Shown: piece by piece, positions 1 through 62,662 of the stretch
Position numbering within the stretch: position 1 is the stretch's first letter
Layout of the letters: each line of letters opens with the position of its first letter
Assembly (NCBI GenBank): GCA_918797485.1
Contig: CAKKNE010000001.1
Span: forward strand, 1-64,000
Length of the DNA: 64,000 bases
Origin: Pelagomonas calceolata
Lineage: Eukaryota > Sar > Pelagophyceae > Pelagomonadales > Pelagomonadaceae
Direction: 5' to 3'
Notes under the pieces: model-generated
Database searches by the model: none
What the model saw: the letters and a program-made list of their open reading frames with translations, nothing else
What the model was told of the DNA's origin: nothing
Program-made: the position numbers and the translations under genes

Positions 1-1
1 C

Positions 2-17119: not shown

Positions 17120-17143
17120 GCTAGTGTCTTACTGGCCGCTAGA
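17120..17143 (+). promoter_or_regulatory. GCTAG motif copy 1
   Basis: Arms GCTAG and CTAGA around core TGTCTTACTGGCCG. It sits about 110 bp upstream of the PC-esterase ATG (17008, minus), in the short gap after the stop of the next gene. Confidence 0.75.
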
Positions 17144-17175
17144 TAATAATGAGAGCTTATGATGACTTGGAAGCC

Positions 17176-17904
17176 CTACGCCGTCGCCGCGGCGCCCGGA
17201 GCGTTCAGTTCGGCGCGCAGAAACGCGACGCCCGTGGCGTTGGAGGGAAAGACGCTCGCGTAGCCGGGGCCGGGTTGCCAGATCTCGAAGGGGAGGTGTC
17301 GCTGGGAGTCGGGGTCCCATAGATATCCCGTGCGCGAGGAGTCCACCTTTTCGCAGGCGACGTAGCGTGCGCCCGGTAGTAATTGCCGGGCGAAGCGGGG
17401 CACCTGCGCCGCAAAATGATCGAGCAGCGACTGCAGAGGGAGGTGCGGCATGAGGGTCATGTCCACGGCGGTCTTCGAAATCCGCACCGTGTCCGTCCCG
17501 ACGACTGTGAGCGTCTGTAGCGCAAAGACGACGGGTTTGTCGACCTCGCAGCCGCAGAGACCTAGAGCGACGGCGTCCAGACCGCCGTTGGATGACGGTG
17601 ACTCCCGGAAGAAATTCGCGATGTTCGTCAGGTCAGCCGGCGCCGGGGGCCGATCGCCGTCCGGGACCTCGGAGAGGTGGCGCAGATCGTATGAGTTGAG
17701 CTGGTCCCGGGCGCCGAACATAAAAAGGCGGACGCCCGCGAGGAGGGGGACGTGGTCGGCGGGGACAGACGCGGCCGCGGCGACCACGGGCGAAGGTTCG
17801 GTGCTCATCTCCATGGGCGCTGGCGCCGCGGCGGCGGGCGGCGGAGCGACGACAGGTGCCGGCGCGGGGGCGGTAGGACTCAGATGGCTTTTGTTGATGC
17901 TCAA
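17176..17904 (-). CDS. Uncharacterised protein with Pro/Ala-rich N-terminus
   Basis: A 242-codon open frame; the first codon in the frame is TTG, and the first ATG is at 17814 (MEMSTEPSPVV), so either translation starts there or a 5' exon is missed. The body (from VPLLAGVRLFMFGARDQL) has no family I recognise. Features visible: a conserved-looking core with GLDAVALGLCGCEVDKPVVFA, HLPLQSLLDHFAAQVPRFARQLL and SRTGYLWDPDSQRHLPFEIW. No signal peptide or membrane segment. Codon use and absence of stops over 700 bp support a real gene. Function unknown. Confidence 0.5.
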   Translation of the reverse strand: MSINKSHLSPTAPAPAPVVAPPPAAAAPAPMEMSTEPSPVVAAAASVPADHVPLLAGVRLFMFGARDQLNSYDLRHLSEVPDGDRPPAPADLTNIANFFRESPSSNGGLDAVALGLCGCEVDKPVVFALQTLTVVGTDTVRISKTAVDMTLMPHLPLQSLLDHFAAQVPRFARQLLPGARYVACEKVDSSRTGYLWDPDSQRHLPFEIWQPGPGYASVFPSNATGVAFLRAELNAPGAAATA

Positions 17905-18476
17905 GTGCGTTGCTTTTGCAGCTAGCGCTCGTGGCGTCGTTCTGCACTATCAGAGGATAATTTGTGACTACAACGACGCACCAACTCGCGCCGCAGACAA
18001 AGCTCTTTGCTTACTTTTGTGTGCCTCTATTGACTTGTAAAACGGGTTCGCGAGCCGCGCGATCCGTCCACGGCGTTGTTTTGCTCAAACGCAAGCCTCC
18101 GAGAGCTCAACAAAAAGAGAGCTCCGCTCAAAAACGCCAAACTGGCGATTCCCAAATCACGCGTGGACGGCATCCACCCGGCTAATACGCCCGCACACGA
18201 TCGCCGAGACAGAAGGGAGGTGCAACTCGTGCACAACCGTGTCCATGTATCACTCTGCCGTAACGACTTGTCGAGATTTCAAGCCTGAGCCCTAAAAGCA
18301 ATGCAGCCAATCGCTTGCCGGCATGTTTTAGCCGGCGGTTTCGGTACGCGAGAGGCGAAATGTAGTCGTGCGCGACGCCACCGCCGCGGTGCCCCCGCGG
18401 TCGCAGTTTGGAAGCGCGTCGCGAAGAGACGGCGGACGGCGCCGGCCCGGATGATCAATTGGTATGCGCACAGGCG
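17905..18476. other. Divergent intergenic region, no gene seen
   Basis: It separates the uncharacterised minus-strand gene from the mitochondrial carrier gene. It is less GC-rich than the genes and contains no copy of the GCTAG motif, no retroelement fragment and no supported coding frame. Confidence 0.4.
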
Positions 18477-19346
18477 ATGGCCCCGTCCATCCTCACGAAC
18501 CTCGGCTGCGCCGGCGGCGCCGCCGTGATCACGGTCACGTTCATCCACCCCATCGACACGGTGAAGACGCGTTTACAAGTGTCGGGCACCGGCAACGCGC
18601 GGAACTACGCGGAGTTGGGCCTGGCCGGCACGTGCTCGACGATCGCCAAGGAGGAGGGCATCGCCGCCTTCTGGAAGGGCATCCCCGCCGCGTGGATGCG
18701 CGAGGCGTCGTACACGTCGTTCCGGCTGGGCCTCTACGCGCCGCTCAAGCACGCGTTCGGGGCCGACAAGCCGGACTCGCCGTTCATCATGAAGTTCGCG
18801 GCGGGCGGCGCGAGCGGCGGCCTCGGCTCCATCGTCGGCAACCCCTTCGACATCCTCAAGACGAAGATGATGGCGTCCGAGACGGGTCTCGGATTGGGCG
18901 CGACCGCGTCGTCCATCTACACCAACCAGGGCCTCATCGGCTTCTACAAGGGCATCGACGCGAACATCATGCGCGCGATCGTGAACAACGGCACGAAGAT
19001 GGCCTGCTACGACACCTCGAAAGGCCTCGTCAAGGACTACGCCCCTTCTCCCTTGAACGAGGGCGTGCCCATGCAGGCCTTAGCGTCATTCATCGCGGGC
19101 TTCTTCATGACGTGCACGGTCGCGCCCTTCGACATCTGCCGCACGCGGCTCATGAACCAGCCCGCGGACAAGCCCAAGGTTTATTTTAACCTCTTCGACA
19201 CGTTCGCGAAGATCGCGACGCAGGAGGGGCCGCCGGCGCTCTGGCGCGGATTTATACCTATGTGGGCTAGAATCGCGCCGACGACGACCCTCCAGCTCCT
19301 CTTCTTCGAGAAGTTCTCCAAGTTGGCGGGCATCTCGGCGACGTAG
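18477..19346 (+). CDS. Mitochondrial carrier family protein
   Basis: A 289-residue protein, the usual carrier length, with three repeats of about 95 residues. Each repeat has the signature at the end of its odd helix: PIDTVKTRLQ, PFDILKTKMM and PFDICRTRLM (consensus PxDxxKxR). The even helices end in the matching (EG..FWKG, GFYKG, ALWRG) elements. Such carriers exchange metabolites across the inner mitochondrial membrane. The sequence resembles the dicarboxylate/oxoglutarate/uncoupling-protein group, but I cannot assign the substrate. The start at 18477 (MAPSILTNLGCAGGAA) places the first helix correctly; the in-frame upstream 23 codons are charged and probably untranslated. No intron. Confidence 0.85.
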   Translation: MAPSILTNLGCAGGAAVITVTFIHPIDTVKTRLQVSGTGNARNYAELGLAGTCSTIAKEEGIAAFWKGIPAAWMREASYTSFRLGLYAPLKHAFGADKPDSPFIMKFAAGGASGGLGSIVGNPFDILKTKMMASETGLGLGATASSIYTNQGLIGFYKGIDANIMRAIVNNGTKMACYDTSKGLVKDYAPSPLNEGVPMQALASFIAGFFMTCTVAPFDICRTRLMNQPADKPKVYFNLFDTFAKIATQEGPPALWRGFIPMWARIAPTTTLQLLFFEKFSKLAGISAT

Positions 19347-19390
19347 TCATACCCCCTCCTGCCCCCGTCTATAGTTCGATCTTGAAAACT

Positions 19391-21600
19391 TTACTCCTCT
19401 CTAGGCTCCCCGGGCCGGAACTTCTCGCGCGCGGCGTCCGTCACAAGCGTCCGCTTCGTGACGGCGGCCGCGCCCTTCGACGGGTGGTTCTCGTGGCCGG
19501 GCGTCCGAAGCGTCGCGTGCGCGGTGCAGGACGCCTGGAGCGTCAGGAAGCACGGCGCCGCCTCGTGGAGCTCGAACGCGACGCCCGCGCACGCCACGAT
19601 GAAGTGCCACGGGTGCCGCCGTGTGCCGCGCACCCAGGCGATGGACTCTGCGAACTTGTCCGCGCTCTTATCGACGTGGACCTCGCAGCCGAACGACTCC
19701 GACATGACCAGCATCGGCGCGGAGATGTAGTCCTCGAGCGTCCGGCTCAGCGGGACGAGGCCCATCGCGTCGCGGAAGAGCGCGCGCATCCGCCCGAGCC
19801 GCGGGACGAAAATCCGTTCGAGCTCACACACCTTGAAGAGCAGCTCGACGACGTCGCGCTTGTACGTGGCGTCGCGCCGCCACTTCTCATCGCGGTGGCA
19901 GAACGTGTGGTACGCGTCGCGGCCGAGGTCCTGCTTGTGCGCGTTGTGCCGCCGGTCGTAGCGGATGCCCTCGCAGTACTGGGCGCCCTGGACCGCGTCG
20001 CGCGCGGCGCTGACGTAGCGCTTGGCCGCGGTGACGGCGCGGTGGAACGCCGTGCGGCCCTCGGCGTCGAAGGCCGCGGCGACGGCGGCCGTCTCGCGGT
20101 CGAGGAACAAGGCCTTCACCGTGACTTGTCGCGGCGGCACGGCGCGATTCACGACCAGCGTCGTCGTCCGTAGGAACGTGAAGCCGAGCGCGCGGCAGGC
20201 CGCCTCGTCCGGCGTGGCCTTCGTGTCGAGCATGTGCTTGGCGAGCGCCTCGCCCCCGCGGACGTCCTCGACCTCGACGACCGCGCAGCGGCCATGGAGC
20301 AGCTTCACCGCCAGGTCCGGCTCCTCGCCCAGCGCGTCCCGGCCGGCGCGGCTGAGCCTTTTCAACATGTCGGGCGACGTCTGGCGCCAGCGCGCCCTTT
20401 CGATCAGCTCGTCCGCCGCGCGCGACCCCGCGGGATGAATCGTGATCTGCGGCGCCCGCGGCGCGTCGTCCTGCGGCGCCGGCGGCGGCGCCGCCATGCG
20501 CGCGCGCAGATCGTCCAGGCGCGCGCGCTGGTTCTCCGTCACGGGCTCTTCCGCGAAGCCGGTGAGCGGCGGCGGGCGCGGCGCGACGGCGCCGAAGGGG
20601 TCCTCGTCGCCGTCGCTCTCGTTCTCCTCCGAGGGCTTGGGCTCGGGCTCGGCGAGCGCGCGCGCCAAGTTGCCACGGGCGCGCTCGAGCGCCGCCGCGT
20701 CGTCCGGCGGCGTTGGAGGCCGCGGGGGTTCGACCTCGTCCGTCGTTGGCAGCGCCGCCGCCGCCGCGTCCTCCGGCGACGGCGCGGGCGTCAGTGGCGA
20801 TGGCGACGGCGATGTCACCGACTCGTCTTCTATCTCCGACGGCGGCGGCAGCGGTGGCGCCCGCGCCGCGAGCGCGCGCGGGTTGGTCCCGAGCGCGCGC
20901 GCGCGCTGGTCCCCCAGCGCAGCGGATTGGTCCCGAGCGCGCGGGGATTGGTCCCGAGCTCGCGCGGCGTCGGCCGCCGCGCGGGCGCTGCTGGTGGCGG
21001 CGCCGGCGCCGCGGTCGGCGCGGCGGCCGCCGGAGCCGGCCGCGGCCGCTTCGGAGGGCTCTTGCGCTGCTTCGGTGGGCTCGGCACGGGCCGCTTCGGA
21101 TGGCTTGGTCGCGGCGGCGACGCCCGCCGACCGACCAGCTTCTCGATCGCGCGCTTGACGCCGTTGTCGTTACCTCGCCGCCGCACGCTGTTGATCACAA
21201 CGACGGCGTTTGCCGGGACGGTGTCGGGCGACGTGTTGCATTCCTTGCACGCGAGCGCGAGCTCGCCAAACGCGGTGACGCTGTCGTCGTAGGAGACGTC
21301 CGCGTCCTCGGCTACGCGCCGCGTCTTGTCCCAACCGCGTCGCACGGCCGCGAAGTCGAGGCCCGTGGCGTCCGTGATCGCCGCGAGGCTCGCCTCGACG
21401 TGCGCGGGATCGTCCTGCTGCGTGTGCCACCACAGCTTCTGCGGGTTCTGCGGCGCCGCCGCCGGCGCGTCCTCGGCAGACTGCTGCGACGACCATCGGT
21501 TGTCCTCCTGAGACCACGGCACCTCCGCCTCGCCGCTCGGCTGCGCTTCCATCGCATCCATGGCTGCCATGATCTCCTCGTCTTCCTGCGTGTTCGCCAT
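19391..21600 (-). CDS. Uncharacterised low-complexity/globular protein, two frames joined across a GC minisatellite
   Basis: Two adjacent frames (21600 to 20830 and 20818 to 19391) look like one gene. The N-terminal part starts MANTQEDEEIMAAMD and holds a globular segment (LWWHTQQDDPAHVEASL ... CKECNTSPDTVPANAVVV). Both frames are open through a degenerate tandem repeat encoding RALGTNP, and that unit appears at the end of the first frame and again in the second frame one base away. I infer one indel or a tiny intron within 20880-20965. The C-terminal part is globular with GCEVHVDKSADKF and a later ELHEAAPCFLTLQASCTAHATLRTPGHENH. An HxD...H arrangement as in 2-oxoglutarate/iron oxygenases is conceivable but weak. 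No confident family. Confidence 0.5.
20880..20965. repeat. Degenerate minisatellite of about 20 bp units
   Basis: Four imperfect units of the form GCGCGCTCGGGACCAATCC (minus strand) in tandem. Unit length is not always a multiple of three, so the repeat switches the frame of the surrounding gene. Confidence 0.6.
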
Positions 21601-21901
21601 CCTGTCGCAGCGCGGCCGGGCGCGCTGCGCCTGCAGCTCTGCAGCTCTGAACGCTGAACGCGCTAGATACGAGCTGTATCTCAACGCGCGGTTGAGAGCG
21701 CGGTACCGCAGCGATAGCGGCACTGCTGGAGGAGCAGCGCGTGTGTTCTTGCCCTCAGCGCTGAGCTTATCAGGCTCAATCACGACGGCCTGGAGATCGG
21801 TTCGGCTTGTGGGTAAGCTTGCTTTTGGCGCGCATGCGCTCTGGCACAGCTCTCGCGCGTGCCGGAGAAGCTGGTCCTCCGTGAGAGGCGTCGCGCTGCT
21901 T

Positions 21902-21925
21902 GCTAGTGTCTTACATGCCGCTAGC
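21902..21925 (+). promoter_or_regulatory. GCTAG motif copy 2
   Basis: GCTAG arm, core TGTCTTACATGCCG, CTAGC arm. It lies in the divergent region between the minus gene starting at 21600 and the EXS gene starting at 22203, about 300 bp from each. A possible TATAAGG occurs at about 22100, and three CGCCGTCGACGCG repeats lie at 22125-22190. Confidence 0.75.
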
Positions 21926-22202
21926 TAAGCACAGTCGACTGTGGCAAAATTTTACGCCATAACAGCGTCGGCCTGGCATCCGAGGCTATTCTGAGCTTGG
22001 CACAGTACCGTCGCAGCAGTCTCAGCACATCAGCGCTGCGAGTTGGCACTCTAGCAAGCCACAAGCTGTTGTCTCAAGGCGTGGGTCGGCTTGCATCGGC
22101 TATAAGGGCTGGGACCAGAGAGGCGCGAACGCCGTCGACGCGGCGACAAAAAAAACGCCGTCGACGCGGCTACAAGACGCCGTCGACGCGTAGGAAACAA
22201 CC

Positions 22203-23811
22203 ATGGCCACCGGCACGCACGCCGCGCGCGGCGAGCTCGCTTTGTTAGGAGCTTTGAGTATAGCCTTCGCCACGCTCACGCTCCGAGAAGCGAGCCCGCA
22301 CGACGCCTTCGAAGTGATATCGAGGTTATTTTGGCGGTCGGCGTCAGCACGCCCTCCCATCCTCTTGGTGGTCATACTCGTAGGATGGGCGGGCGTCGTG
22401 CACTGCGGCCAAGTAGCCGGGTTAAGGCTCTCGAGAGCTTTGGGCGAGGGCGTGTTATCACCAAGAATCATTCTGCGGAGCGCTTTGGGTTTATTGGATG
22501 TGATACTGCTCTGTCGGCTGGTACCCTTCGTGGCCCAAGTGGTCTTCGAGACGGAGCACTTCGGGCGGTGGTGTTTGTTCTTCGATCTAGTGGCGTACGC
22601 CGCATGCATCCTACTCCTAGCGGCGCCACCCTCTGCTTGTTGTGGTAGTGATGAAGCGGGTTATTCCAGTGAAAGGTGTAAGGCCCACCAGCGCTACGAC
22701 CACGGCTGGCTGTTGCAGACGGCCCACGGTCGAAGTTCATTGCTGAGAACTCTGATAGAATCTTTATGCGCGCCGTTCGCGCCCGTGACGTTCTGGCACG
22801 TCATCGTGGCCGACTATGTGCGGACTCGGCGTCCCGCGGTGCTGCGGTGCCTTCACGCCATCGACGCGCGTCGTCGCCATCTCCTGATGAAGTGGGTGGT
22901 CTCCTTTTCGATTTTGAGCCGATTCGGACCACGTCGGGGCTGCGCGGCGTGTCAGAGAGAGAGAGAGAGCGTCTTCGTGAGACCACGCCGCCGCGACGCC
23001 GTCGATGCGGCGGTCTCGTGACATGATCTCGACACAGGCCACGAGCATGGCCAAGGCACTCGGTGACGTCCACGTCACGGGTTGTGTCGCGTGGTACGCC
23101 GGTATTTCACCGGCCTACTCCCACCTCACAACAGATACGCACGGCGTCTTCTGGGAGGAGACCAGAGGGGCTTGCGTCACGTCCGAATTAAACGCGTGGG
23201 CGCTGGCCTTGCCCTTCTGGTGTCGTTTATTTCAATGCCTATCGGTACTACGACGTACGGGCGAGCCCAAGAACTTCTGGAACGCCGTGAAATACGCGAC
23301 GGCGTTTCCTCTCGTCTATGCGGGGTACCTGGACCGACTCGCGCCGACCGATCAAACTCGTAGATTAGTAGTGTTGACGGCCTGTGTGCAATCCTCCGCA
23401 ACCTTCGCCTGGGACCTGTGCATGGACTGGGGCCTCTTCAAGAAGCGGCGAGGGGGATTACTCTGTGGCATCTTCGAGGTCGACCAGATGAGGGAGCCGA
23501 AATCACTCGTTTTTTCGAAACGTAGCGATATGTTTATATATGCTGCTTATGCCGGTCTGGTGCTCTTCAACTTCAGTCTGAGGTTTGCCTGGGCTTTGGC
23601 GGTGTTCGGTCACGTGTCGACGCGCGGCATGGGCATGTTGTCGTTTGAAATTGCGGAATTGGCGAGGAGGACGGTCTGGGCGTTGTTTCGCATCGAGTGG
23701 GAGTATCATGAAAAAGGATGGCCCCTCGATACCGACTCAGATAACGAGGAGACGGAACAGCTCGTGGAGATGGTCGAGAAGGGCGGGGCGCGGAGCGCTT
23801 CTGAAGATTGA
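22203..23811 (+). CDS. EXS-domain (ERD1/XPR1/SYG1-type) multi-pass membrane protein
   Basis: Two exons, 22203-22817 and 23038-23811, joined in phase 0 to give 462 residues. Hydrophobic helices are spread along the chain (ALLGALSIAFATL, PPILLVVILVGWAGVV, MFIYAAYAGLVLF). The spliced joint reads TFWHVIVADYATSMAKAL, the EXS hallmark (F.D.LTS..K.L.D). Further EXS blocks are YLDRLAP, WDLCMDWGLF and the C-terminal FEIAELARRTVWALFRIEWEY. The length fits ERD1-like proteins without an SPX domain, which act in Golgi protein retention and phosphate handling in yeast and plants; that role here is inferred. The intron (22818-23037) starts GTGCGG, ends ACACAG and contains CACGCCATCGACGCG, so it may be an old introner. 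Confidence 0.8.
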
Positions 23812-23875
23812 GTAAAAAGTATAAACGGTGTGAGTGAGCCGCGGCGACGGCGTCCATGCGACCGACTCTTTTTGG

Positions 23876-23930
23876 CTAAGGCTAAGGCTAGTTACGTCGC
23901 AGGGTTCCCCGTACCCCTCCCGCTCCCCCC
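23876..23930 (-). repeat. Dispersed repeat fragment (retroelement 3' tail type)
   Basis: About 50 bp matching the tail downstream of the retroelement fragment at 48540-48600 (shared on the minus strand: GTACGGGG..CCCTGCGACG then TAACTAGCC). It ends in repeats of the hexamer CCTTAG, as terminal short repeats of non-LTR elements do. It sits between the 3' ends of two convergent genes. Confidence 0.55.
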
Positions 23931-23951
23931 GGGCCCACCCGTCCGGCTGGA

Positions 23952-25748: not shown

Positions 25749-25877
25749 CTAGTGGGCGGAGCCCCTGGGGGGGAGACACCGCGCGTCGCCGATTCATCGG
25801 CGGCGGGCGCGGGCCGCTTCTTTCATAACAGCGTACCTCCTTCTAAGCAGAACCGCCTCGGCAAACCCCCCCGAACA
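25749..25877 (-). mobile_element. Retroelement 3'-end fragment A
   Basis: About 129 bp closely matching, on the minus strand, the end of the retroelement frame and its 3' untranslated part at 48394-48520 (shared blocks GGAGGTACGCTG, CGATGAATCGGCG, GGTGTCTCCCCCC). It is truncated at both ends relative to that copy. Its downstream edge coincides with the first open codon of the NZF gene, so it may lie in that gene's first intron or leader. Confidence 0.7.
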
Positions 25878-25903
25878 TAGCTAGTCAGTAATGCGTGTAC
25901 TTG

Positions 25904-25927
25904 GCTAGTGTCTTACAGGACGCTAGA
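25904..25927 (+). promoter_or_regulatory. GCTAG motif copy 3
   Basis: GCTAG arm, core TGTCTTACAGGACG, arm CTAGA. It lies between the divergent NZF gene (minus) and C-type lectin gene (plus), about 200 bp upstream of the lectin ATG at 26128. Confidence 0.75.
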
Positions 25928-26127
25928 CTCCAGGCTCTCGGTCACTTTGTTTTTTGGCCTGTACGCACGGTTTCACGCTAGGAAATTACCCACAGTTCTC
26001 GCAGCCTCTCACTTGAGTCGGCTCCAGCCTCTGTTAAGTTGGCGTGCGCTTAAAGGACCCTCAGGCCGAGGGACACAATATCTCTGCAGCACGCGCTGTT
26101 CACTGGAGACGCGTCACGCACACAAAA

Positions 26128-26923: not shown

Positions 26924-27026
26924 TCGTTCTTCCCTTCCCTGTATCCTGATGATGATTAAGTACGCCTCCCTTGTAGATTTCGTGGGGCTGGACGTCTGAT
27001 CGATGGCGTGAGGGGCTGCACATCAG

Positions 27027-27094: not shown

Positions 27095-27172
27095 TCCCGT
27101 CGATGTTACGGTGCTAGTACTAGTGGGCGGAGCCCCTGGGGGGGAGACACCGCGCGTCGCCGATTCATCGGC
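27095..27172 (-). mobile_element. Retroelement 3'-end fragment B with 13-bp target-site duplication
   Basis: A 78-bp piece matching the 3' untranslated part seen at 48465-48545 (minus strand here: CGATGAATCGGCG ... CGTAACATCGAC). It is flanked by a perfect 13-bp direct repeat GATCATTTCTTCA at 27082-27094 and 27173-27185. A 5'-truncated insert with a long target duplication is the signature of target-primed reverse transcription by a non-LTR element. Confidence 0.85.
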
Positions 27173-27185
27173 GATCATTTCTTCA

Positions 27186-28660
27186 CGCAGGGAGGAAATA
27201 ATACCTAGCGTGTCGACATACTAGCAAATTCAAAGATACGCTTCGATAGCGTCAAAAGAATGACCCAAATTCAGAATATATCCTGGTCGTTCGCCGCGAC
27301 CAAATATTTCAGAGTAGCGGCCCGGGAACATACCCTCGCGCCTCCCGGAAGGCACCGCCCGCGACATTCGCGGATGAGTCTTACGGCTCGCCAAAGTAGA
27401 CCCGCGCTTGACGCCGCCATCCACCGTCCAGATAGTACATTATATCAACTCCAGCCCAGTTTTCATACAAGTTCGACGGAACCGGAGCCGACGGCGCGCG
27501 CTCGGAGGGCGGGAAAAGAATTCTACTGGACAACTCTCGCGTTTATGTTCGTTTCCTTCCGTTTGTTGGTGGTAGAGTCCATTTCGGCCGAATCAGTGAC
27601 TACTGAGCTATTTTAGATTACCCGTTAGAGCCGCGCGAAACAGCGACTCCACGACCCCAGGTTTATGTGTAGAGGGGCTCAAGACCTAGACCCGCGAGTA
27701 TCAGCGACGCCACCATCCAGATGGATCATAACGCCGTCGTTCTATCCACAATCGACTGACTTGCCCGTTCTCCGCGGACGACGGTGCGGAGACGGAGCAC
27801 CGGAAAGGCCCCAGACGGGTGGTTTATAAAGTAAATTTGCGTTTCAGGCGCTTTAGTTGTGGGACGGGCCAGATAACTGGCCTGAGCGTGTACTACATTG
27901 CTCGAGACCCCACGATGCTCCGCGCGGCTCGGCCAACTCGCGAGCCCACGATCTTGCTTTAAACGGGCAAATTACTTGGACCTGGGCCCATCAGCCCGTG
28001 TACCATCACCATGGACCATGACGCGATCATTTGTTTCATGATCGACGGACTTACGCGAGGTCCAGATAAAGATGTTCACGTCCCGAGCGTGGGCAGCCAA
28101 AAGTACCCTTCTTATAATGTAGATGTCATATACTTGTAATTGACTATCGCTGGGGTAGTATGGGGTCCAACGAGACCGCTACGGCGACTACTGGGGGCCC
28201 TCGGGTAATTGACGTTTTTGACGGGAACGGGGCGCCATCGGGTCCAAATTATTTACTTTTTGTGGATGTAGATCGGCTCGCGGACTCCCTCCGGGATAGG
28301 TCTGGGGTCGGGTAGTCGCCTACGCCGCATGCGCCCGTGCTTGGAGCTCCCCAGAGAGCTCTGGATCGAAATCTTTGGCAAATCATGGCCAATACATCAG
28401 TAGCGCAAAGGACCATGGGAGATGTATCTCACTCTGGAAGCGGCGGCGTAGGCGGCGTAGGCGATTGCACATGTCTAGTAGCGACCCAAAATGGCTTCCG
28501 GGAGACCTCAGGACCACGAATTGACAGGATTCCACCTACGCGCCCGCCATGGCGGGGTCGTCAATATCGCGAATTAAAAAAATTCCTTTTTTGGCCCCCA
28601 GGAAGTGTCCCATTGATCTCTTTGGACCATTAGCGAACTGAACGGTACTCAAACGGCTGC
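27186..28660. other. Gene-poor, lower-GC island
   Basis: About 1.5 kb with no supported coding frame; the longest open frames (27260-27616, 28337-28633) lack domain similarity. Base composition is visibly less GC-rich than in neighbouring genes. Weakly similar stretches recur about every 300 bp (around 27410, 27700 and 28000: CCATC near ATGGA/CATAACGC), suggesting a decayed tandem repeat. The island is bracketed by the direct repeats at 27027 and 28666. Confidence 0.45.
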
Positions 28661-28665: not shown

Positions 28666-28690
28666 GCGTTCCGAGTTTGGCTTGCTAGTG
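28666..28690. repeat. Direct repeat, right copy
   Basis: GCGTTCCGAGTTTGG then CTTGCTAGTG, identical to 27027-27050 apart from one added G. It overlaps the start of the complete GCTAG motif at 28684. Confidence 0.7.
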
Positions 28691-28708
28691 TCTCTACAGG
28701 CCGCTAGC
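28684..28708 (+). promoter_or_regulatory. GCTAG motif copy 4
   Basis: GCTAG arm, core TGTCTCTACAGGCCG (one base longer than the consensus), CTAGC arm. It lies about 170 bp upstream of the FAD oxidoreductase ATG at 28876, same orientation. Confidence 0.75.
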
Positions 28709-36908: not shown

Positions 36909-37683
36909 TGCGTTGTTTTGTGTGAGTGGGAGCGCTCTCTCGGTCGCGCGCGCGGTCCACGGCGTCGTACGCGCGTCCGGGCTCTCGGCGCTCTCGCTCT
37001 CTCTCTCGCGCTCTCTCATGTATGCGGTCCGCGCGCGGCGGGCCGCTTGCGCAGGCCGGCGTTCGCGCGCGCGCCTTTGCGTCTGTCCGGCCCGCGGGCC
37101 GCGTCGCGCCCGGCGCCGGCATTTATACGGGCCGCGCGCACGGATGCGGTCCGCGGGCCGCGGCGCGCAGGCCGCCGGCGCCCCGACGGCCGCGCGGCAC
37201 CAGAAACAGCTCGAAACAGCTCGTGGCTCCACTTGCTGTTTTTACGGCAGGCGTCGACGCGCCGTTGATATCACACGCGGCGGCGCACGCCACAGCCCAT
37301 CGCTCACTTCTCAGACCGCGACCAGCAGAGCTGTGCACCACAGCTGCGTCCCTGGCCTGCTCTGCCTTTGGCTTTCAGGGCATTGCTGCTAGTGTGTCAC
37401 AGGCCGCTAGCAAAGCTCCGCACGGAAGTTCTCCCAAAGGACGCAGTATATCAGTCAGACCACGCTTCGTTTTTGAATCACCATCCCGAGCTAGCGCCCG
37501 ACTCGTCCAGCAGCCGTCGAGAGGACACATTGTGGGCCGTCTAACGTAGCCAATCAGCAAGCACCAAGGCAGCCAACGCAAGGAAGAGAGCGAGCCAGGC
37601 CTGCAGCCAAGCCGGGGCAGCAAGCTCAGCAGCAGCGCGCAAGCAGGGCAGCAGCCAGCTAGCCAGGGCAGAGGCAGCCACCC
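36909..37683. other. Divergent regulatory region with CT-rich microsatellite
   Basis: It lies between the kinase (minus) and the exchanger gene (plus). It contains an extremely GC-rich block with CTCTCT/CGCGCTCTCTC repeats (about 36980-37020), a GC-rich stretch of GGGCCGCG-type repeats to about 37200, and the GCTAG motif at 37388. No supported frame. Confidence 0.45.
37388..37411 (+). promoter_or_regulatory. GCTAG motif copy 5
   Basis: GCTAG arm, core TGTGTCACAGGCCG, CTAGC arm. It is about 270 bp upstream of the Na+/H+ exchanger ATG at 37684, same orientation. Confidence 0.75.
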
Positions 37684-41362: not shown

Positions 41363-41386
41363 GCTAGTGTCTTACAGGACGCTAGC
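41363..41386 (+). promoter_or_regulatory. GCTAG motif copy 6
   Basis: GCTAG arm, core TGTCTTACAGGACG, CTAGC arm. It lies about 185 bp upstream of the FTR ATG (41179, minus strand), in opposite orientation to the gene. Confidence 0.75.
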
Positions 41387-47685: not shown

Positions 47686-47709
47686 GCTAGCGGCCAGTAA
47701 GACACTAGC
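47686..47709 (-). promoter_or_regulatory. GCTAG motif copy 7
   Basis: On the minus strand: GCTAG arm, core TGTCTTACTGGCCG, CTAGC arm. About 180 bp upstream of the phytyl-ester-synthase-like ATG (47506, minus), same orientation. The retroelement fragment begins within about 25 bp of its other edge. Confidence 0.75.
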
Positions 47710-47730
47710 GGCGCGAACCGGGAGGGCCTG

Positions 47731-48477
47731 GTGATCCAGTTATGCACCGAGGGGCTCGGTGGAGAGCAGGTGCAGAAAGTCTGGGATTCTTTAACTGACG
47801 CGGACGGGGGCGACCTCGAAGGGAGCATAGTCCCGGACATCGCCATCGAGAACGTCCTCTACGACGTCAAAACCGTCGCGGCGACGACCGAGCATTACGC
47901 GCCGGGCCATATCGAGGCCTACATGAGGGCGGAGCACAAGCGCGGTAATGCGCCGGTTGATAGACGCGCCCGTCTCGTGAACGGGCAGTACCTGAAAAAG
48001 GCCCACAAGCTGGATATGAAGTACAACTCGGTCGGGGGCGTCGAGTGCGGTCCGATGGAGAACGCCATCCGGAGCCGCGGCGAGGTTTGTGGTCTCGCGT
48101 TCGGCAGCGCCGGCGAGGCGTCCGCGGACGTCCATCGCCTCGCACGCGTCTGCGCCGACGAGATCGCCGGCAAGCAGTTCCGAAAGGGCCTGATCGACGC
48201 TGATTCGGTCGAGGACGCGGCGGCCATGATTCAGGCCCAGATCTACCGGGAGTGGGGCGTGGCGATTGTCAAGGGTCGGGCCGAGTGTCTACTGGCTTTG
48301 TTGGAATGTACGGTACCGAACGCGTCGCCGCGGTCCAAGGTCGCCTGCGGGAAGTCGCGGGACAAGTTGATTGAACGGGCGAACGTTGCACATTGTTCGG
48401 GGGGGTTTGCCGAGGCGGTTCAGCTTAGAAGGAGGTACGCTGCTATGAAAGAAGCGGCCCGCGCCCGCCGCCGATGA
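47731..48477 (+). CDS. Retroelement ORF C-terminus with PD-(D/E)XK / RLE-like endonuclease motif (5'-truncated)
   Basis: About 248 codons without an ATG near the 5' end (first codon GTG; a stop lies just upstream at the motif edge), so this is a truncated fragment. VPDIAIENVLYDVKTV shows PD-x9-DxK, the restriction-like nuclease motif of non-LTR elements with a C-terminal endonuclease. The following VDRRARLVNGQYLKKAHKLD, VCGLAFGSAGEAS, and WGVAIVKGRAECLLALL match the region after the reverse transcriptase in retroelement ORFs of algae and dinoflagellates as I recall them. The frame ends in sequence (GGFAEAVQLRRRYA) repeated at 25749-25877, tying the other fragments to this element. Not a host gene. 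Confidence 0.65.
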   Translation: MIQLCTEGLGGEQVQKVWDSLTDADGGDLEGSIVPDIAIENVLYDVKTVAATTEHYAPGHIEAYMRAEHKRGNAPVDRRARLVNGQYLKKAHKLDMKYNSVGGVECGPMENAIRSRGEVCGLAFGSAGEASADVHRLARVCADEIAGKQFRKGLIDADSVEDAAAMIQAQIYREWGVAIVKGRAECLLALLECTVPNASPRSKVACGKSRDKLIERANVAHCSGGFAEAVQLRRRYAAMKEAARARRR

Positions 48478-48600
48478 ATCGGCGACGCGCGGTGTCTCCC
48501 CCCCAGGGGCTCCGCCCACTAGTCCTAGCACCGTAACATCGACTCTCGCAGGGAGGGGTACGGGGGACCCTGCGACGTAACTAGCCTGAGCCTGAGCGAA
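48394..48600 (+). mobile_element. Retroelement 3' end (reference copy C)
   Basis: It contains the last codons of the retroelement frame, the stop and about 120 bp of 3' untranslated sequence (CCCCAGGGGCTCCGCCC, CTAGCACCGTAACATCGAC), then a tail shared with 23876-23930 (GTACGGGGG.CCCTGCGACG, TAACTAGCC, then CTGAGC repeats). Copies A, B and D match parts of it. Confidence 0.75.
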
Positions 48601-54978: not shown

Positions 54979-55153
54979 GGCTGCGGCTTGTTTACGTTGC
55001 CATCGTCGGTTCACGCTGCGGGGCAGCCTCTTTTTGGCCGCAGCGGCGGCGCTTCGGGCTGCCTTGCGCCTAGTGTGTCTCACTATAGGTCCTCAGGCTT
55101 GCGGAGGCGTCGGGCGCGAGGACTGCGTGCCTCGGACGTATGCGGATTTGCTC

Positions 55154-55177
55154 GCTAGTGTCTTACAGGCCGCTAGC
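55154..55177 (+). promoter_or_regulatory. GCTAG motif copy 8
   Basis: Exact consensus: GCTAG, core TGTCTTACAGGCCG, CTAGC. It sits in the divergent region between the WW/LRR gene (ATG 54978, minus) and the F-box gene (ATG 55329, plus), about 150-175 bp from each. Confidence 0.8.
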
Positions 55178-55328
55178 CATCTAGCCATTGGGTCTTGCAA
55201 AAAAGGAGAGGCAATTATAGCTCGCTGATCGAACCATTGCTGTAGCTAAGCGCTGCAAAAGAACACCTGCAAAGGCATCTTCGCAGCGCCGCGGCTCATA
55301 CTCTGAAACGCATTCATGCGAGAGTGCA

Positions 55329-56285: not shown

Positions 56286-56338
56286 TAGAGGATATCGCAA
56301 TCGCACCTTTTCTCTTAGCGGTGACCTGTCGATCCGGC

Positions 56339-57519
56339 TCAAGGTCCCGATGCAGGTGTGGGGCTACGTCCGAGCCTGGAGTGCCCACAATGTTGTTCGC
56401 CATTCTGCCCTACCGCGGCGGCGGCTGCGGCGGGTCGTCGTCGCGCGCCGCGCCCCAAGGCGCCTCCGGCAGGACGCCACGGCGGCTCCTCCGGATCGAG
56501 GCCGCCGGCGATCATAGCGGTCGCGTCGCCTAGAGCCGACGCGTCGTCGCTGCAGGCCGCCAGGGCCTTTTCCAGCTCCGCGCGCGCGTCGTCCGTCTTC
56601 ACGGCGAAGTACTCTAGTACGTGCTGCTATCAGTAAATCGTCGTCGTAGTCGGCGCCCGCGCCGATCACGGCGTCGACGGCCGCTTCCAGCGCGCAGGCG
56701 TCTGTCGACGCGATGAGCCCGCGCAAATCGTCCCGCTTCTTTGGCAGAGACGGGTCGGACGGCGCTGGAGGCGGCGCGGCGCCAGAGCTTTTACACCGTT
56801 GGTCGCCGCGGATTCCGGCCATCTTCAGCGGACCGGGAATCGCGAGTCGGTTGATGGCCATGATCTTCTCGCGTTTTGAGGTTTCGCTGTGGCTCAGGAT
56901 GGCGTCGATGTCATGAGTTTCTGATCTAGGTGTTTCCACGGTCGCCGGATGGGGCGCTAACGGCAATGTGGCGGGCATCGGTGGTGATGCTGCCCTTACA
57001 GAAGGCCGCGTCCGCTGCGACGCCATCGACGCGCACCGCGGGGGTAGTCATCATCATCATTGAAGACACGCTCTCCTGCCTCCCGCCTGAACTGCGTGGA
57101 GTGTGAGGCGCGGCCCAGGCCTCGTTCGAGGACCGCGACATGGCCTCCGCGTCGCCCCGCAACCGGCGGAGGCACGCATCCAAAGCTTCGAGCCAGTTGG
57201 CAAAATCTCTAGGAGACTCCGCTCGGACCTTGAAAGTTTTCCTTGATCTACCATGAGCATCTTGGACGTCCCAGAGTTCAAAATAGTGCGTCGCCTCGCC
57301 CGGCTTCGGCCGGTGGCGGCCGCGCATGCTCACTGTCTCGGGCACGCGCACCGACGATTTCGCGGAGAGCCGCACGGTGCCCTTCTGATCCATCAAAGAG
57401 GGGTCCGCGTAGTAGTGGAGCTCGCACGTGTCGTTCTCGAGCAGGAACCAGCGTCGCTTCCAATTCCTACGCAGGCCGACCACCGAGCCGCCCTTTTTCA
57501 GCAGGAAGGAACTGACCAT
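56339..57519 (-). CDS. Pleckstrin-homology-domain protein
   Basis: The first 115 residues are a PH domain: SSFLLKKGG..VGLRRNWKRRWFLLEND, LHYYADPS, GTVRLSAKS, and the C-terminal helix ANWLEALDACLRR with its invariant Trp. It should bind phosphoinositides or proteins at membranes. Downstream sequence continues through frame changes near 57010 and 56620: ETHDIDAILSHSETSKREKIMAI, then VLEYFAVKTDDARAELEKALAACSDDASALGDA. It is helical and without a known domain. Both changes could be consensus errors or short introns. ATG 57519; stop near 56339. Confidence 0.7.
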
Positions 57520-57559
57520 GCCTGCGGCTTCGCGGGCAGCCTATGGCTGGTTTCTGTTC

Positions 57560-58135
57560 AAGCTTCGATCGATGGGGGATGGTTCCGTGCAGTATGACGA
57601 TCGATGGTGCGCTGTAAGTGCTTGTTGTGCTCGGGCAGCTTGATTGGTGGCCAGTGCTCGATCGTCGCGGGGCGCGACCCGCACGCAGGCGTCTCCGCGG
57701 CGGCGGCGTTGAGCTCCCGGTGCACGAGTACGGGGGTCGCGCTCGCTCGCCGCGGCGACCGCGAGGCGCGCGGCCGGCGGCGCTCGCGTCCTAGTGGCGT
57801 CGGCCGCCGGGAAGGCTCGTCGCACCCCGAGCGGGTCGCGGGGCCCAGGAAACGTCGGGTCACGCACCGGCTGCGTGACCCCCCCCTCGCCGTTGAGGCG
57901 AGGCCGCGAAGGAGAAGCTCTCCCAAAATTCGGCAGCCAAAACAACGACCTGGGAGTGAACCTGCCGTCGCACAACGAACTCAACCAGCTGCTCGCGCAC
58001 GCGGAGCTGGGCATCGACGCCGAGCAACACCTCCGGGCTCGGCCCCTCGCGCCGTGGCGCCTGCACACCTGGCTCCCCGCGGCGTGGAAGCGCATGCACG
58101 ACGACGCCCGAGCGCCGCTCTGTGAGCTCGCGTGA
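57560..58135. other. Low-confidence interval between PH and P1 genes
   Basis: Both strands are open here because of high GC. A plus-strand stretch at about 57945-58135 (NDLGVNLPSHNELNQLLAHAELGID ... WRLHTWLPAAWKRMHDDA) reads like protein, but it has no ATG, no partner exon and no family I know. The minus-strand extension of the P1 frame through the region is implausible for that short protein. Confidence 0.3.
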
Positions 58136-58185
58136 GACTGATATGTGTATGCGTTTGTAGCGCGCGGTTTGAGAGAAAGAACGCG

Positions 58186-58297
58186 ATAATCGTCGCCGCC
58201 GCCGCCGTCGCCGAACATGTCCATGCCGCCGCCCATGTCGACCTCTTCCTCCTCCTCCTCTTCCTTCTTCTCCTCCTCGGCCGCCGCGGCCCCGCCG

Positions 58298-58332
<35 letters not shown>

Positions 58333-58578
58333 CGATCCCGGCGCGCCGCACATGCAGTCGAGGTCGCCGGCGAGCGTCGCCGCCTTCGAGAACACCGACA
58401 CCCAGTGCGGCGCGACCGAGAGGCCCGCGGCCTTCAGCACGGCCTCGAACTTCTCGGGCGCGAACTTGTCGTCGCCCTCGCCGCACTGGTCGAGGACCAG
58501 CGCGGCGAGCGCGACGGCCTGCTCGTCCTTGTTCTGGTCCGCGAAGGACCAGGCCTTGGGGGCTTCTTCTTCCGCCAT
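58186..58578 (-). CDS. RPLP1: 60S acidic ribosomal protein P1/P2 (stalk)
   Basis: Starts MAEEEAPKAWSFADQNKDEQ at ATG 58578. A helical dimerisation domain (ALAALVLDQCGEGDDKFAPEKFEAVLKAAGLSVAPHWVSVFSKAAT) is followed by an Ala/Gly hinge with fourteen consecutive glycines, an acidic run (EEEKKEEEEEEEVDMGG) and MDMFGDGGGGDDY. This layout is that of P1 proteins of the ribosomal stalk, which recruit elongation factors. The usual terminal acidic-hydrophobic tail is close but the frame does not stop after DDY; it runs on as low-quality sequence, so a 3' intron or a base error hides the true end. The glycine codons form a GGC-type microsatellite at 58290-58335. Confidence 0.75.
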
Positions 58579-58639
58579 CTTTGTGTCGCCTTAAAAGACC
58601 TTTGAGCCTCGACGAGGCACTCGACCGCGTCTGTGCGCG

Positions 58640-59784
58640 AGTCAAGCGGTACCTACGGTTGCGAGGGGTGAGCTGCTTGCGTTTCGTGCGGCGCGCGAGC
58701 CTTTGTGTGTGTGCGGTGCGCGCGCGGCCGGCGAGGCACGTTTGCTCGTAAGCTGGAGTGCGCGCGCGGCCGGCGAGGCACCGCTTGCTCGTAAGCTGGC
58801 TGCTGCCTTGTTTGGGTGCCGTGCGGCCGCCGGCGTGCAGCGATTCGAGCCACCGAGCAGCGATGGGTTGTCAGTAAGACGGTGCGACGAGCGATTGCGT
58901 CCGGTTTTGCGTAGCGGCTCTGTTAGACGCACCAAAAGACGGCGATGTCAAAGCGAGGCAAAATGGACAAAGGCCCGCGAGCCGCCCGCGAAGCCCTCCA
59001 GGCGAGCGCTCCAGCCGTGCGAGGTCTCGCTCAGACCGCTGGCAAAAGCAACAGGGCAAAACGCCCAGTCTCGCCCCGACGCGCGGCCACACGACTGCTT
59101 TAGGTCATCTTGGTTGTATAAGAACAAACTAAAGTTATGGAACCATGCTTCGGTCGGCGCGAACGACGCGCCGCCCACGTCTCGGATCCGCGACGTTCGA
59201 TATTGCGTAGCGGCGGCGGCGGACGCACCTTAAGCGGCGATGTCGAGCCTCGCTGCTCACTAGAGTACGCCGGGCCGCCGAAGCAGCCCTCTCGGACGCC
59301 AGGAGAGACCCGTGCGGCGAGCTGGGGGAGAACCCTCGAGCTCGGGACGCGTTGGACGGCTGAAATCAAAACTCGTTTAAACTCGCTGCAACTCGTCGAG
59401 CGCTCGCAGGTCGTCGCGGGCTGCCGTTCTGACGTCCAGACGGGTGTCGAGACGCTTATTAGGGGCTGCCTAGTTCCACCAATCTACACTCAAAATGTTG
59501 CTGGGCTGGTGAGGAGCCGCGTGGATAAGAACGCCTCCACGCGCCAACTAGCCCACGTGTAACAGATAGGACACGTTTAGGGCGCGGGCGAAGACGTTCT
59601 GCAGCGCTGGTGTCGCTGAGCGAATTCAAATCGGCTCAGCGGGCCCCCAAACAAGTTTAAAGCGCCTCGATTCGCGGCGCACCTCCAGGGTAGCGCCCAG
59701 GGCCCCGATTGAAAAAGGGGCCCGCAGCAAACATCTAAAGAAGTAGCGGCGCGCACCACGACCGCCGCGGGCCCGACAGCACCA
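58640..59784. other. Intergenic region with local duplications
   Basis: No supported gene. A 35-40 bp tandem duplication lies at about 58720-58800 (GCGCGCGGCCGGCGAGGCAC, then TTGCTCGTAAGCTGG, twice). A second pair of similar stretches lies at about 58900-58960 and 59200-59255 (TTGCGTAGCGGC, GACGCACC, GGCGATGTC). Open frames here are not conserved-looking. Confidence 0.5.
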
Positions 59785-59789
59785 TTTTA

Positions 59790-62615
59790 AACACGGCCCA
59801 AGGCTACTCGCCGTACGGCGCGCCTTCGCCCACGGCGGCGGGCGGCCTCGGCGGCCCGGCGCCCCTCGACGACGGCGGCTGGGAGGCCGCGTGCGCGCTC
59901 GGCGTCCGACGTCCGCCGAGGGGCCTTTCTTGTCATGGAGAGTCTGTCGCGCCGGCGCGCGTTCGAACGGCGGCGCTCGAGGAAACTCTAGGATGGCCTT
60001 CCGACGGCCGTCCACTCGCGTTCCAACGCGTCCACACGCCGTCGACGATTTGTATACTACACAGGCGCCGCGCCCAGCAACCGCAAAGTCGCCAGGCCTA
60101 CGCCGACTCGATGGCTTTGGCGGCCGCCTACGGCCGCCCGCCCGAGCCGCGCTACGAGCAGCCGGCGCCCACTTACGGGGATCCGGGGCCCTATCGGGCC
60201 CAGGAGCCGCTTCCTTCTCAGTTAGCGCGACCGGCAAAAAAGAAGCGGCCGCGAAGAAAGCACGGCGAGCTCGCGCGGGGCATCGTCCGAAGGCGCGAGG
60301 ACTGGGACGACCACTGCCTCATCGAGATGGACGACGGGTGCGTTTCCTGTGTTTGTCAACTTCAAGGCGCCTTCAACTCACAATGGTGGGGGCTTGCGGC
60401 GGCCGGCGCGCGGCGCGCGCATTGCCGGCGACGGCGCGGTGGCGCTGGTGTGAACTGGTGTGAACTGGTGGCCTCGCGTCACCGGCGCGCGCCGCGGCGC
60501 CGTCGACGCGCCGTCGTTTCTATGACGGTGTCGGCTCGACGGCGTGGCGGTTTTGCGACGTTGGCGCCATCGACGCGACGTCGTTCCCACGGCGTCGCCT
60601 CGATGGCGTCGAGGTGGACTTACCGTTGTCAGCGCGCCGTCGCGCACAACACACAACACACAACACACGCCGTCGCCGCACTACCACGACGCGAAAAGCG
60701 AACGCGTCCATCCCGACACAGGTTCGAGGACGTCTTCTGCCACCGCCACCGCTGCCAGGGCAAGCAATTGCCCGAGCAAGGGCAGGTCGTCGACTTCAAG
60801 CTCCATCTCTCCTCGAAAAGTCTGTGCTGGCAGAGCGGCTTCGTGACCTGGGAGGAGGGCGACATGGCCGAGCTCAAGCGGCCCGAGCCGCCGTTGGACA
60901 TCCCGCGAGCGCCGCGCCGTGCCGGAGCCGCGGGACGGGCGCCGCCTCCCCAAAGACAGGCGCCGTACGGCGGCTACTACGACCAGCGGCCGCGAGCGTC
61001 GTCCTTCGACGATCGGCGGGCGCGACTGCCGTCTGATCTCTCAGATGGTGTGACGGAAAGCTCAGACGCCTCGGACGCGGGGGCTACCAACAGCCACCGC
61101 CAAGACCGTCGCCGGCGGAGTTCGCGGATCGCGGGGCCGCGTCACTACTCGCGACGCTCGACGCGCCGGCCTGACGCCGCAGCAAAGACCACAACGGCCG
61201 GCACCGCTGCCCGACACGGAGCTCGCGTCGGACCTGCGGCAGCTGGGCCTCGCCGAACAGAGACCGCCCAAGACAGCCGGACCCGTCGCCGCCGTGGTTG
61301 GCGGGCATGCTCGACGAACCGGCGCAGCAGCCGCTCGGCGCCTTCGACCGCCCAGCAGCGGCGCAGCCGCCGCCGCCGCCCGGTCTAGCTGAAGCGGAGC
61401 CGACCTGGGCCTCCGCCGCGACGCGGCCCGCCGGCGCGCCGCCTTTACCAAGACCGCGGGCCTCGTCGGTGTCGTCCTCGGTCGCGTCCGACGGTGCTTC
61501 CGCTCTGGATCGCATCGCGCTCAAGGTCGTGCCCGTGGACGAGCAGAAGACGCCCTGGCTCGCGACGGCGGACTTACCCGCTAGAAGAGCAGCCCCGATC
61601 GAGCAGCTCCGGGCCCACACGCAAAGCGCCGTCGAGGCCGGGAATGCTTCCGCTATACAAAAGCTCAAGCGGCGAAGAGAAACGCGAAAGCGCGCGAAAC
61701 GCGGCGACCATTGTAGGGTCGAGGTGCGACCGCGCGACGGCGGCGGCGTCTTCGTGAGTGCTTATGGTGTCAACGCCGCGGGCGCGGGCGCCGCGCTCCG
61801 ACGCATGCTCACGGCCAATGCCGCTCTACTGGCCGGGCGCGACGTCGACGCCACGGCCGACGACACCCCCGAAACGCGCCAGAACCTAGGCTGGGCCGAG
61901 CTCGTTGCCCAACTCCGGTCGATACTGGCGCGGGGCGAGTCCCGCGGCATCTGCTGCAACCACCTGTCCAGAGCGTTCGAGCGGGACTTCGGTTCAGCAT
62001 TGGTCGAGACGCTCTTCGGCGACTACGAGTCCCTGGCCGCATTACTGAGAGCGCCTCAACTCAAAGACGTCGTCACGCTCGCCGAGCAGCCGGGCCGGCC
62101 GACCTCATGGTGCGCCTCGCTCAGACAGAGACGCCGGAGCGGGCCCAGCCGGCGGTCCGCGAGGCCCTACGTTCGTGGTCAGCTTAGAAAGGTACGAGGC
62201 CACCTTCGCGAGGACGTGAGCGTGCAAACTTTGGTGCGCATGACGGACGACGACCTGGCGCCTGCGGAAGCTTACCAAAGGGCCGCGGGTGCAGATCCTG
62301 GCCTGGGCGAGCCGCTGACTGATATCAACCCTATGCGTGTGCCGCGGGCTCCAGGCCTCCGGCGAAAAACGACCCCCCCCCATCGAGTCCCCCGCGCGGC
62401 GGCGATATGCTGCCGTGGACGGGACACCTATTAATAACCCCTATTATCTCGTGAATCTTTTTTGCCTTCGTCGATGGCGTGCTTGCCCCGATCCATTCCA
62501 CGTGGAACCCGATCCGGCGTCGTCGTCTGGCGCCGAGGTATATATGAATAGTTTACTTCGGATGCCTGAGAAACCCGTTTTTCCGCCTTACTTATTGGCC
62601 GAGACCCCTCCCTAG
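59790..62615 (+). CDS. LOTUS/OST-HTH-domain RNA-binding protein (multi-exon, partly broken frames)
   Basis: Coding-like exons: about 59790-59900 (GYSPYGAPSPTAAGGLGGPAP), 60070-60340 (MALAAAYGRPPEPRYEQPAP ... RGIVRRREDWDDHCLIEMDDG), then from 60720 (FEDVFCHRHRCQGKQLPEQGQVVDFKLHL), a small beta-barrel-like domain. The C-terminal half contains an OST-HTH/LOTUS domain, ELVAQLRSILARGESRGICCNHL followed by FERDFGSALVETLFGDYESLAALL, which binds RNA or Vasa-type helicases. A SAM-like helix bundle follows (VSLERYEATF, REDVSVQTLVRMTDDDL). Frames change near 61280, 62110 and 62200. The end at 62615 (GTPINNPYYLVN...LLAETPP) is inferred. The intron at about 60340-60719 contains introner hairpin arms and a short (ACACA) repeat. 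The first exon is not located. Confidence 0.55.
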
Positions 62616-62636
62616 GCGCCGCGATAGTTCCCAGGC

Positions 62637-62662
62637 GCTAGTATGTCTTACTTGCCGCTAGC
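62637..62662 (+). promoter_or_regulatory. GCTAG motif copy 9
   Basis: GCTAG arm, core TATGTCTTACTTGCCG (two bases longer than the consensus), CTAGC arm. It is about 350 bp upstream of the CHMP4 ATG at 63016, same orientation. Confidence 0.7.

Follow-up and report, generated by a model that had tools for sequence, protein, structure and literature searches.

A 24-bp word repeated across Pelagomonas calceolata promoters: a probable host element used as a landing mark by non-LTR retrotransposons

Why should one long DNA word stand over and over again upstream of diverse genes? This question is raised by the window, i.e. the whole stretch of 64,000 nucleotides analysed here, which is the start of contig 1 in the 32.4-Mb, eight-contig assembly of the alga Pelagomonas calceolata (G000 in the following, with L numbers denoting stretches fetched for comparison). 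The GC content of the window is 63%; for P. calceolata RCC100, the available sections of the genome publication give six nuclear contigs with 32.4 Mb, plus plastid and mitochondrion, and 63% GC (PMC9481584). An initial annotation of the window had reported nine copies of a 24-bp motif and had offered three explanations: a promoter element, a hairpin in a transcribed 5′ leader and a tiny mobile element. All nine sites are indeed there, seven of them with 24 bp and the other two, at 28684 and 62637, with 25 and 26 bp. Among the three explanations it is the first that has gained support, since position relative to genes, freedom of orientation and conservation in a sibling species make the promoter element of a general factor the most likely one. 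Overall, we consider it rather probable that the motif is a host promoter element of a putative general factor, used by non-long-terminal-repeat (non-LTR) retrotransposons as a landing mark.

The motif is bipartite, with the signature CTAGTGTCTTAC-N(0-5, mostly 4)-CGCTAG. Exact bipartite copies, i.e. the left half, a spacer of 0–9 and CGCTAG, occur 2,099 times in G000 and 0 times with a reversed control, the left half CTAGTGTCTTAC alone 2,364 times (reversed control 1) and the exact 14-mer core 210 + 198 times. A genome-wide search with up to three mismatches, the check proposed in the initial annotation, found at least 1000 forward and at least 935 reverse copies, and 0 with the reversed pattern; five arbitrarily placed 10-kb stretches contain three copies at this threshold. 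It is the 4-nt spacer that varies, the two halves being almost constant: among the 100 places listed, it measures 4 nt at 73, 3 nt at 17, 2 nt at 5, 0 nt at 3 and 5 nt at 2, and 24 bp is the modal length. With 8 of its 12 pairs palindromic, a value attained by 0.5% of shuffled sequences, the 24-mer forms an imperfect palindrome. Outside the motif, the left edge of which is not sharp, the sole signal is a weak TGCTT to its left, and in 100 aligned copies no flank column is prominent beyond −5 to +2. Contig 5 has copies whose coordinates are close to those of copies on contig 1, which fits the known duplication of these contigs, for which the available sections of the RCC100 report describe a duplicated region in common (PMC9481584). 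An apparent strand bias among the exact copies listed was rejected as an artefact of the listing.

The position of the motif relative to genes was determined for 101 copies with no more than four mismatches, located in 89 stretches, using a codon-based gene model that had been trained on 34 long open reading frames (ORFs) from the window and the five 10-kb stretches without reference to the motif. None of the 101 copies falls into a coding call; 53 lie between divergent genes, 34 between tandem and three between convergent genes, with 11 left unassigned. Such contexts alone prove little because convergent regions are short, and it is the distance to gene starts that provides the only decisive positional evidence. 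Among 140 coding-segment edges facing a motif, 109 are found at 100–300 bp, as compared with 50 ± 4 upon random placement in the same intervals (maximum 66 in 5,000 trials), and only two are closer than 60 bp (random expectation 23 ± 4). When only the 130 edges that are ATG codons are considered, 105 fall between 100 and 300 bp. Orientation is mixed, as had been stated for the window: 15 of the 34 tandem copies are on the strand of their gene, i.e. placement is orientation-neutral, and in the 53 divergent cases the median distances to the two sides are 193 and 200 bp. The downstream genes are diverse; a Pfam match (E 1e-4) was obtained for 20 of 40 scanned proteins, with no theme that would indicate a common function. 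A link to tRNA genes or Pol III was likewise rejected (ARAGORN found none in 12 loci), as were further promoter words, since the enriched words proved to be mainly repeats.

Is the motif also kept in evolution? The exact pattern has 0 matches in viral_contigs, and a scan of genome_contigs gave five motif loci, all in metagenome-assembled genomes (MAGs) labelled bacterial, from two of which L009 and L012 were added. As these five matches look like algal contigs inside bacterial MAGs, a viral or prokaryotic origin of the motif was rejected. The contigs that match the alga at 80–90%, i.e. L001 (NZGT01000041.1), L003/L010 (one contig, NZGT01000179.1), L004 (NZGT01000013.1), L005 (CAJWOS010000634.1) and L012 (G001 contig 182), had been placed in MAGs labelled Spirochaeta or proteobacterium and provide a sibling lineage with which the alga can be compared. 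L001 is 83% identical to G000 contig 6 across 3.8 kb, with a long ORF that by eye is importin-like; L004, L010 and L012 show 80–90% identity to G000 in several stretches, and L005 matches over 339 of its 3,889 bases only. In the orthologous promoters of L001, L010 and L012, 22, 23 and 21 of the 24 motif bases are kept relative to G000, while the 40-bp flanks, compared without gaps, match at only 7–17 of 40 positions; farther out, the flanks align again with gaps. That the motif is nearly identical where its immediate surroundings have diverged suggests that it is under selection in orthologous promoters. L005 has kept all 24 motif bases, together with a conserved left flank (38 of 40). A further contig, L002 (CAJWEZ010000013.1; match to L030), is almost the same as G000 around the motif and is therefore of little use for judging selection. 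In its positions 1–8000, the near-identity around the motif is to G000 contig 1 at 2.15 Mb and ends about 130 bp farther on; bacterial-looking ORFs come next, so that the contig looks chimeric. The conservation test is one-directional because the MAG loci were found via the motif.

The second line of evidence comes from a repeat in L004, which matches many places in G000 (47 rows, partly the syntenic region itself), including 25749–25869 and 48383–48538 of the window. Sixteen fetched copies have a common end, ..CCCACTAGTCCTAGCACCGTAACATCGAC with small changes, and another end that varies. The longest open frame seen, in L144, comprises 1,212 codons and matches RVT_1 with E 1.9e-4, or 4.6e-5 on a 467-aa piece, both matches falling below the curated cut-off of 29.6 bits; by eye, the ORF of the element shows reverse transcriptase-type motifs such as FFFDDGY. 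With a fixed 3′ end, variable 5′ truncation and target-site duplications of variable length, the element looks like a non-LTR retrotransposon. A PD..DVK stretch, seen by eye in the ORF of the window element, would suit a restriction-like endonuclease, which no family, structure or model backs: a Pfam match is lacking, the longest frame has no PDB sequence match, and the model of the C-terminal part, with a predicted local distance difference test score (pLDDT) of 43.6, is too poor for a structure search. The retrotransposon is present in the same intergenic region in both lineages (L004 250–520 and, in G000, L055 around 3129) with different 5′ ends, which may reflect either a single insertion that was subsequently eroded or two separate insertions at a hot spot.

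A motif or degenerate motif is found within 70 bp of the 5′ junction in 18 of 18 copies (17 of 18 by a stricter count without the pattern written for L139), with 0.016 expected for each. These junctions come from 14 of the 16 stretches L127–L142, which had been chosen from the 47 rows for their high scores, together with L144, L004 and two copies from the window. As for L136 and L138, which extend inside the element, the 5′ ends were read by eye in L145 and L144; the broken 3′ end of the window copy at 25749 led to its omission. BLAST was run with L144 and the 47.7-kb window copy as references, which fixes their own BLAST junctions by construction; the L144 junction rests on its 10-bp direct repeat, and the window junction was redone against L145. 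Direct repeats of 7–16 bp occur at 12 of the 18 junctions (4.8% in swapped controls, 7 or more), and the motif stands outside of this target-site duplication, so that it must predate the insertion. In the 12 clear cases, with offsets entered by hand from the junction table and a misplaced row for 27186 set aside, the near end of the duplication is 0–19 bp (median 8.5) and the far end 12–32 bp (median 19) away from the outer CTAG of the motif. A dependence of this landing offset on motif orientation is suggestive and, with 12 cases, not claimed. On the 3′ side of the element, no motif was present within about 60 bp in the 14 stretches measured, a count that leaves out L129 and L141, which were measured from an internal GTAACA.

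In a second batch (18 further copies and the one in L055), a single fixed pattern detected the motif at 11 of 19 junctions, with about 1.1 expected (5.65% of random stretches of equal length). Counting two loci found by 24-mer similarity alone would give 13 of 19, 11 of 19 being the number that compares like for like with the control. Where pattern and BLAST junction were both found, they are about 4–22 bp apart in seven of eight cases.

The promoter element read as a landing mark could thus operate as follows. The 24-mer would most likely be bound by one abundant general regulatory factor, either a dimer or a protein with a two-part DNA-binding domain. Bound in either orientation, this putative host factor may open the chromatin some 200 bp ahead of gene starts, in many cases for two divergent genes together. 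The integration complex of the retrotransposon would recognise the motif itself or be tethered by the factor bound on it and, as we infer, would cut the DNA to one side of the motif, such that the 5′ end of the new element faces it. Copy number, position, free orientation, conservation, adjacency and duplications are what the sequences show; the factor, its effect on chromatin and the reader of the motif are deduced from them.

A second repeat family does not just land at the motif but carries it. Some motif copies run on into a common block; one block query gave 48 matches (178 candidates, 40 scored), the ends of which are variable. Apart from the query's own place, they start at query positions 36–70, which means at the motif (query 51–74), within it or no more than 15 bases to its left. 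In L108, L109, L111, L113, L118 and L032, motif and block together are bounded on both sides by exact direct repeats of at least 8 bases, in L035 the motif and three bases are bounded by a direct repeat of 10 bp beside an older motif, and L114, L125 and L126 are similar by eye. Of all 119 copies, just 10 have direct repeats of at least 8 bases within 150 bp, about twice the 5.4 expected, so that the individual cases depend on their position at the block end. In 12 of 26 block copies (query included), the variable end has another motif no more than 70 bp away. Read on the opposite strand, the order is old motif, duplication, truncated end, fixed end and duplication, i.e. the geometry of the first family. 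Since the fixed end of this second family is a copy of the motif, every such event adds a motif.

Several variants of the motif are also seen. A longer form with extra bases after CTAGTGTCTTAC (e.g. CTGTAAGTAC) occurs in the block-bearing repeats L112, L114, L115 and L117 and might be either the scar of a repair or an older form of the motif. In L107, L111, L034, L116 and others, the usual TGCTT is replaced by CTAG-GGATGC-CTAG or its reverse complement CTAG-GCATCC-CTAG, and GGGATG ahead of the motif is also found in the sibling-lineage copies L003 and L004. Motifs also occur in pairs, direct at 37 and 70 bp apart or inverted at 150 bp apart (L035 990–1050, L126 301–394, L094 790–963). In the sibling L001, a block remnant is situated beside the motif; the G000 orthologue is without it.

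A retroelement family with the motif at its fixed end could copy it both beside old copies and into new promoters. Part of the promoter network would then be retroelement-built and, serving as a landing grid, would reinforce itself, and the variable motif spacer could record repaired cuts. We put this loop forward tentatively and hold it to be unlikely. A rival reading, in which the motif belongs to the retroelements, appears less likely still; here, their protein would recognise the motif, the motif-carrying family would have distributed it among promoters, and most solitary copies would be old insertion ends of which the host has kept some. What speaks for it are the very features of the second family, i.e. 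a dispersed repeat that starts at or near the motif and has variable ends, the enclosure of motif and block by direct repeats, and the frequent second motif near the variable end. Solitary copies, however, show little excess of direct repeats, near-identical orthologous copies with diverged immediate flanks in two species suggest selection, and insertion next to existing motifs cannot alone account for some 2,000 separate promoters.

That the retrotransposon simply prefers open promoter chromatin, the nearness of the motif being a by-product, seems improbable to us. The motif does have a central place in divergent intergenic regions, in which one would expect open chromatin, but such a general preference is hard to reconcile with duplications whose near end is confined to 0–19 bp from the outer CTAG at the 12 clear junctions, or with motifs that are found on the 5′ side of the element and, in about 60 bp of the 14 stretches measured, not on its 3′ side. 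The tiny mobile element of the initial annotation, which would be a solitary, promoter-targeting transposon with 5-bp terminal repeats resembling a miniature inverted-repeat transposable element (MITE), is very unlikely for most copies: L035 with its 10-bp direct repeat beside an older motif could be cited in its favour, but just nine of 119 copies have a direct repeat of at least 7 bases within 40 bp (3.5 expected), the left edge (TGCTT) is weak rather than sharp, and the motif is common to orthologous promoters of two species. What remains of that proposal is that the motif marks the landing site of a retrotransposon and that one family carries a copy. DNA transposons with two fixed ends, MITEs included, were rejected also because the motif-bearing repeat has one variable end and solitary copies have direct repeats in little excess. 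The least probable explanation is a transcribed 5′-leader hairpin or RNA element, for which the inverted arms GCTAG/CTAGC and the palindromic pairing would fit, but which is contradicted by strand-neutral placement, by single copies often shared between two divergent genes and by the failure of all 12 loci examined to reach the gathering threshold of any Rfam family.

Several observations weigh against a host promoter element that serves as a landing mark. The case for promoter function is one of position and conservation. The shares of intergenic length (divergent 51%, tandem 42%, convergent 7%) nearly account for the context counts, and 10 of the 140 edges are predicted splice edges rather than ATG codons. 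Exact copies make up 72 of the 101, and the column frequencies are biased because most copies were picked via the exact core. In the sibling lineage, the motifs of L001 and its G000 orthologue (L013) are in the same region and orientation, yet their spacing differs by about 55 bp and MAFFT did not align them opposite each other, and the G000 copy orthologous to that of L004 (L055) is damaged, with an extra base and the right arm lost. At the retrotransposon junctions, 8 of the 19 in the second batch are without a motif by the fixed pattern and 6 of 19 by either test, of which some may have their 5′ end beyond the fetched 400 bp; in L150 the motif is not beside the BLAST junction, and the match in L153 is weak. 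In L146 and L147, which are distantly related to the retrotransposon, no motif is present within 2.1–2.2 kb.

How do the copies in the window fit into this picture? Seven of them match GCTAGTGTCTTACAGGCCGCTAGC with 0–2 mismatches, whereas 100 dinucleotide shuffles give 0. The copy at 17120–17143 (plus strand, two mismatches) lies 132 bp upstream of a minus-strand gene, and that at 21902–21925 (plus, one mismatch) has divergent genes on either side, at 301 and 277 bp. At 25904–25927 (plus, two mismatches), the motif stands between divergent coding segments, with the end of a retrotransposon fragment about 27 bp off. It is followed by the 25-bp length variant at 28684–28708 (plus), with a predicted start 167 bp downstream, and by 37388–37411 (plus, two mismatches), which is 272 bp upstream of a Na+/H+ exchanger gene. 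The copy at 41363–41386 (plus, one mismatch) precedes, by 183 bp, a minus-strand gene that has a ferredoxin-thioredoxin reductase beta-chain domain, and the one at 47686–47709 (minus, one mismatch) is followed after 17 bp by a 5′-truncated retrotransposon. The copy at 55154–55177 (plus) is the exact consensus, between divergent genes at 175 and 151 bp; the 26-bp variant at 62637–62662 (plus) is 405 bp away from the next predicted coding segment, which starts at a splice edge. All nine are non-coding by the gene model, as the initial annotation had stated, and its range of 110–350 bp to a start codon holds for most of them, though not for 62637. Copies between divergent coding segments are more numerous than the three it had counted: the gene model gives four (21902, 25904, 37388 and 55154), or five with 47686, where the right-hand segment is the truncated retrotransposon; in the case of 25904, the segment on the left begins at a predicted splice edge and not at a start.

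The non-LTR retrotransposon at 47727–48543 (plus strand, 5′-truncated) comprises an ORF end and the 3′ end ..CTAGCACCGTAACATCGAC, with its 5′ edge set by similarity to the L145 copy. Two pieces of the same element are on the minus strand: a fragment at 25749–25877, which adjoins the motif at 25904 and has a broken 3′ end, and a 3′ fragment at 27095–27173 (edges approximate) with a 13-bp direct repeat at its ends and the degenerate motif GCTAGTATGTCGACACGCTAG at its 5′ junction (27205–27225, minus). A separate dispersed repeat, ACGCCATCGACGCG (30 matches at up to one mismatch), is non-coding and found at 7313 and 40671 of the window and elsewhere. Some of its copies stand behind a word like TGTGGAAATCAAATTTC, TGTGGAAATCAA has 10 matches, and the repeat is perhaps an introner family.

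The 14-mer GTGTCTTACAGGCC was not found in the literature searched, where preprints and supplements were outside the scope and a prior description is possible; a 12-base piece of the motif gave one literature match, on diphthamide in yeast, and no description of the motif was found among the papers listed on Pelagomonas and introners, Aureococcus promoters, pelagophyte retrotransposons or stramenopile promoter motifs. In yeast, the sites of the general regulatory factors Reb1, Abf1 and Rap1 are present in many copies, close to promoters, in free orientation, at diverse genes and in divergent promoters. The algal motif shares with them number, promoter proximity, free orientation, diversity of genes and occurrence in divergent promoters, and is longer. 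If it is indeed such an element, one long promoter word could be tested at about 2,000 sites. The alga would also offer a case of non-LTR elements homing not to ribosomal DNA (rDNA), tRNA genes or telomeres but to a dispersed promoter element. Both the attraction of such elements to promoters and a possible spread of promoter elements by mobile ones could then be studied in one genome.

Among known mobile elements, the introners of Aureococcus, another pelagophyte, are described in the available sections of PMC9860276 as having an 8-bp target duplication, to which the repeats of 8 or more bases in the motif-carrying algal family can be likened, whereas introners sit in genes as introns and the algal elements are intergenic with one variable end. 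A system that works in a similar way is the LTR retrotransposon Tf1 of Schizosaccharomyces pombe, which, as far as the sections at hand of PMC5741268 go, inserts at −9 and +19 from a 21-bp Sap1 motif. There as here, the promoter motif of a DNA-binding protein, putative in the alga, would guide a retroelement at a short offset, 0–19 bp in the 12 clear cases; unlike Tf1, the algal element looks non-LTR, with one fixed end, variable others and duplications of 7–16 bp. Another such system is the non-LTR element R2 of Bombyx, for which the sections at hand of PMC10499050 give a 13-bp motif read at −34 to −22 from the bottom-strand cut. In both, the element lies downstream of the motif, the outer CTAG and the far end of the duplication being 12–32 bp (median 19) apart in the alga, but in contrast to R2, the targets of the algal element are many dispersed promoters.

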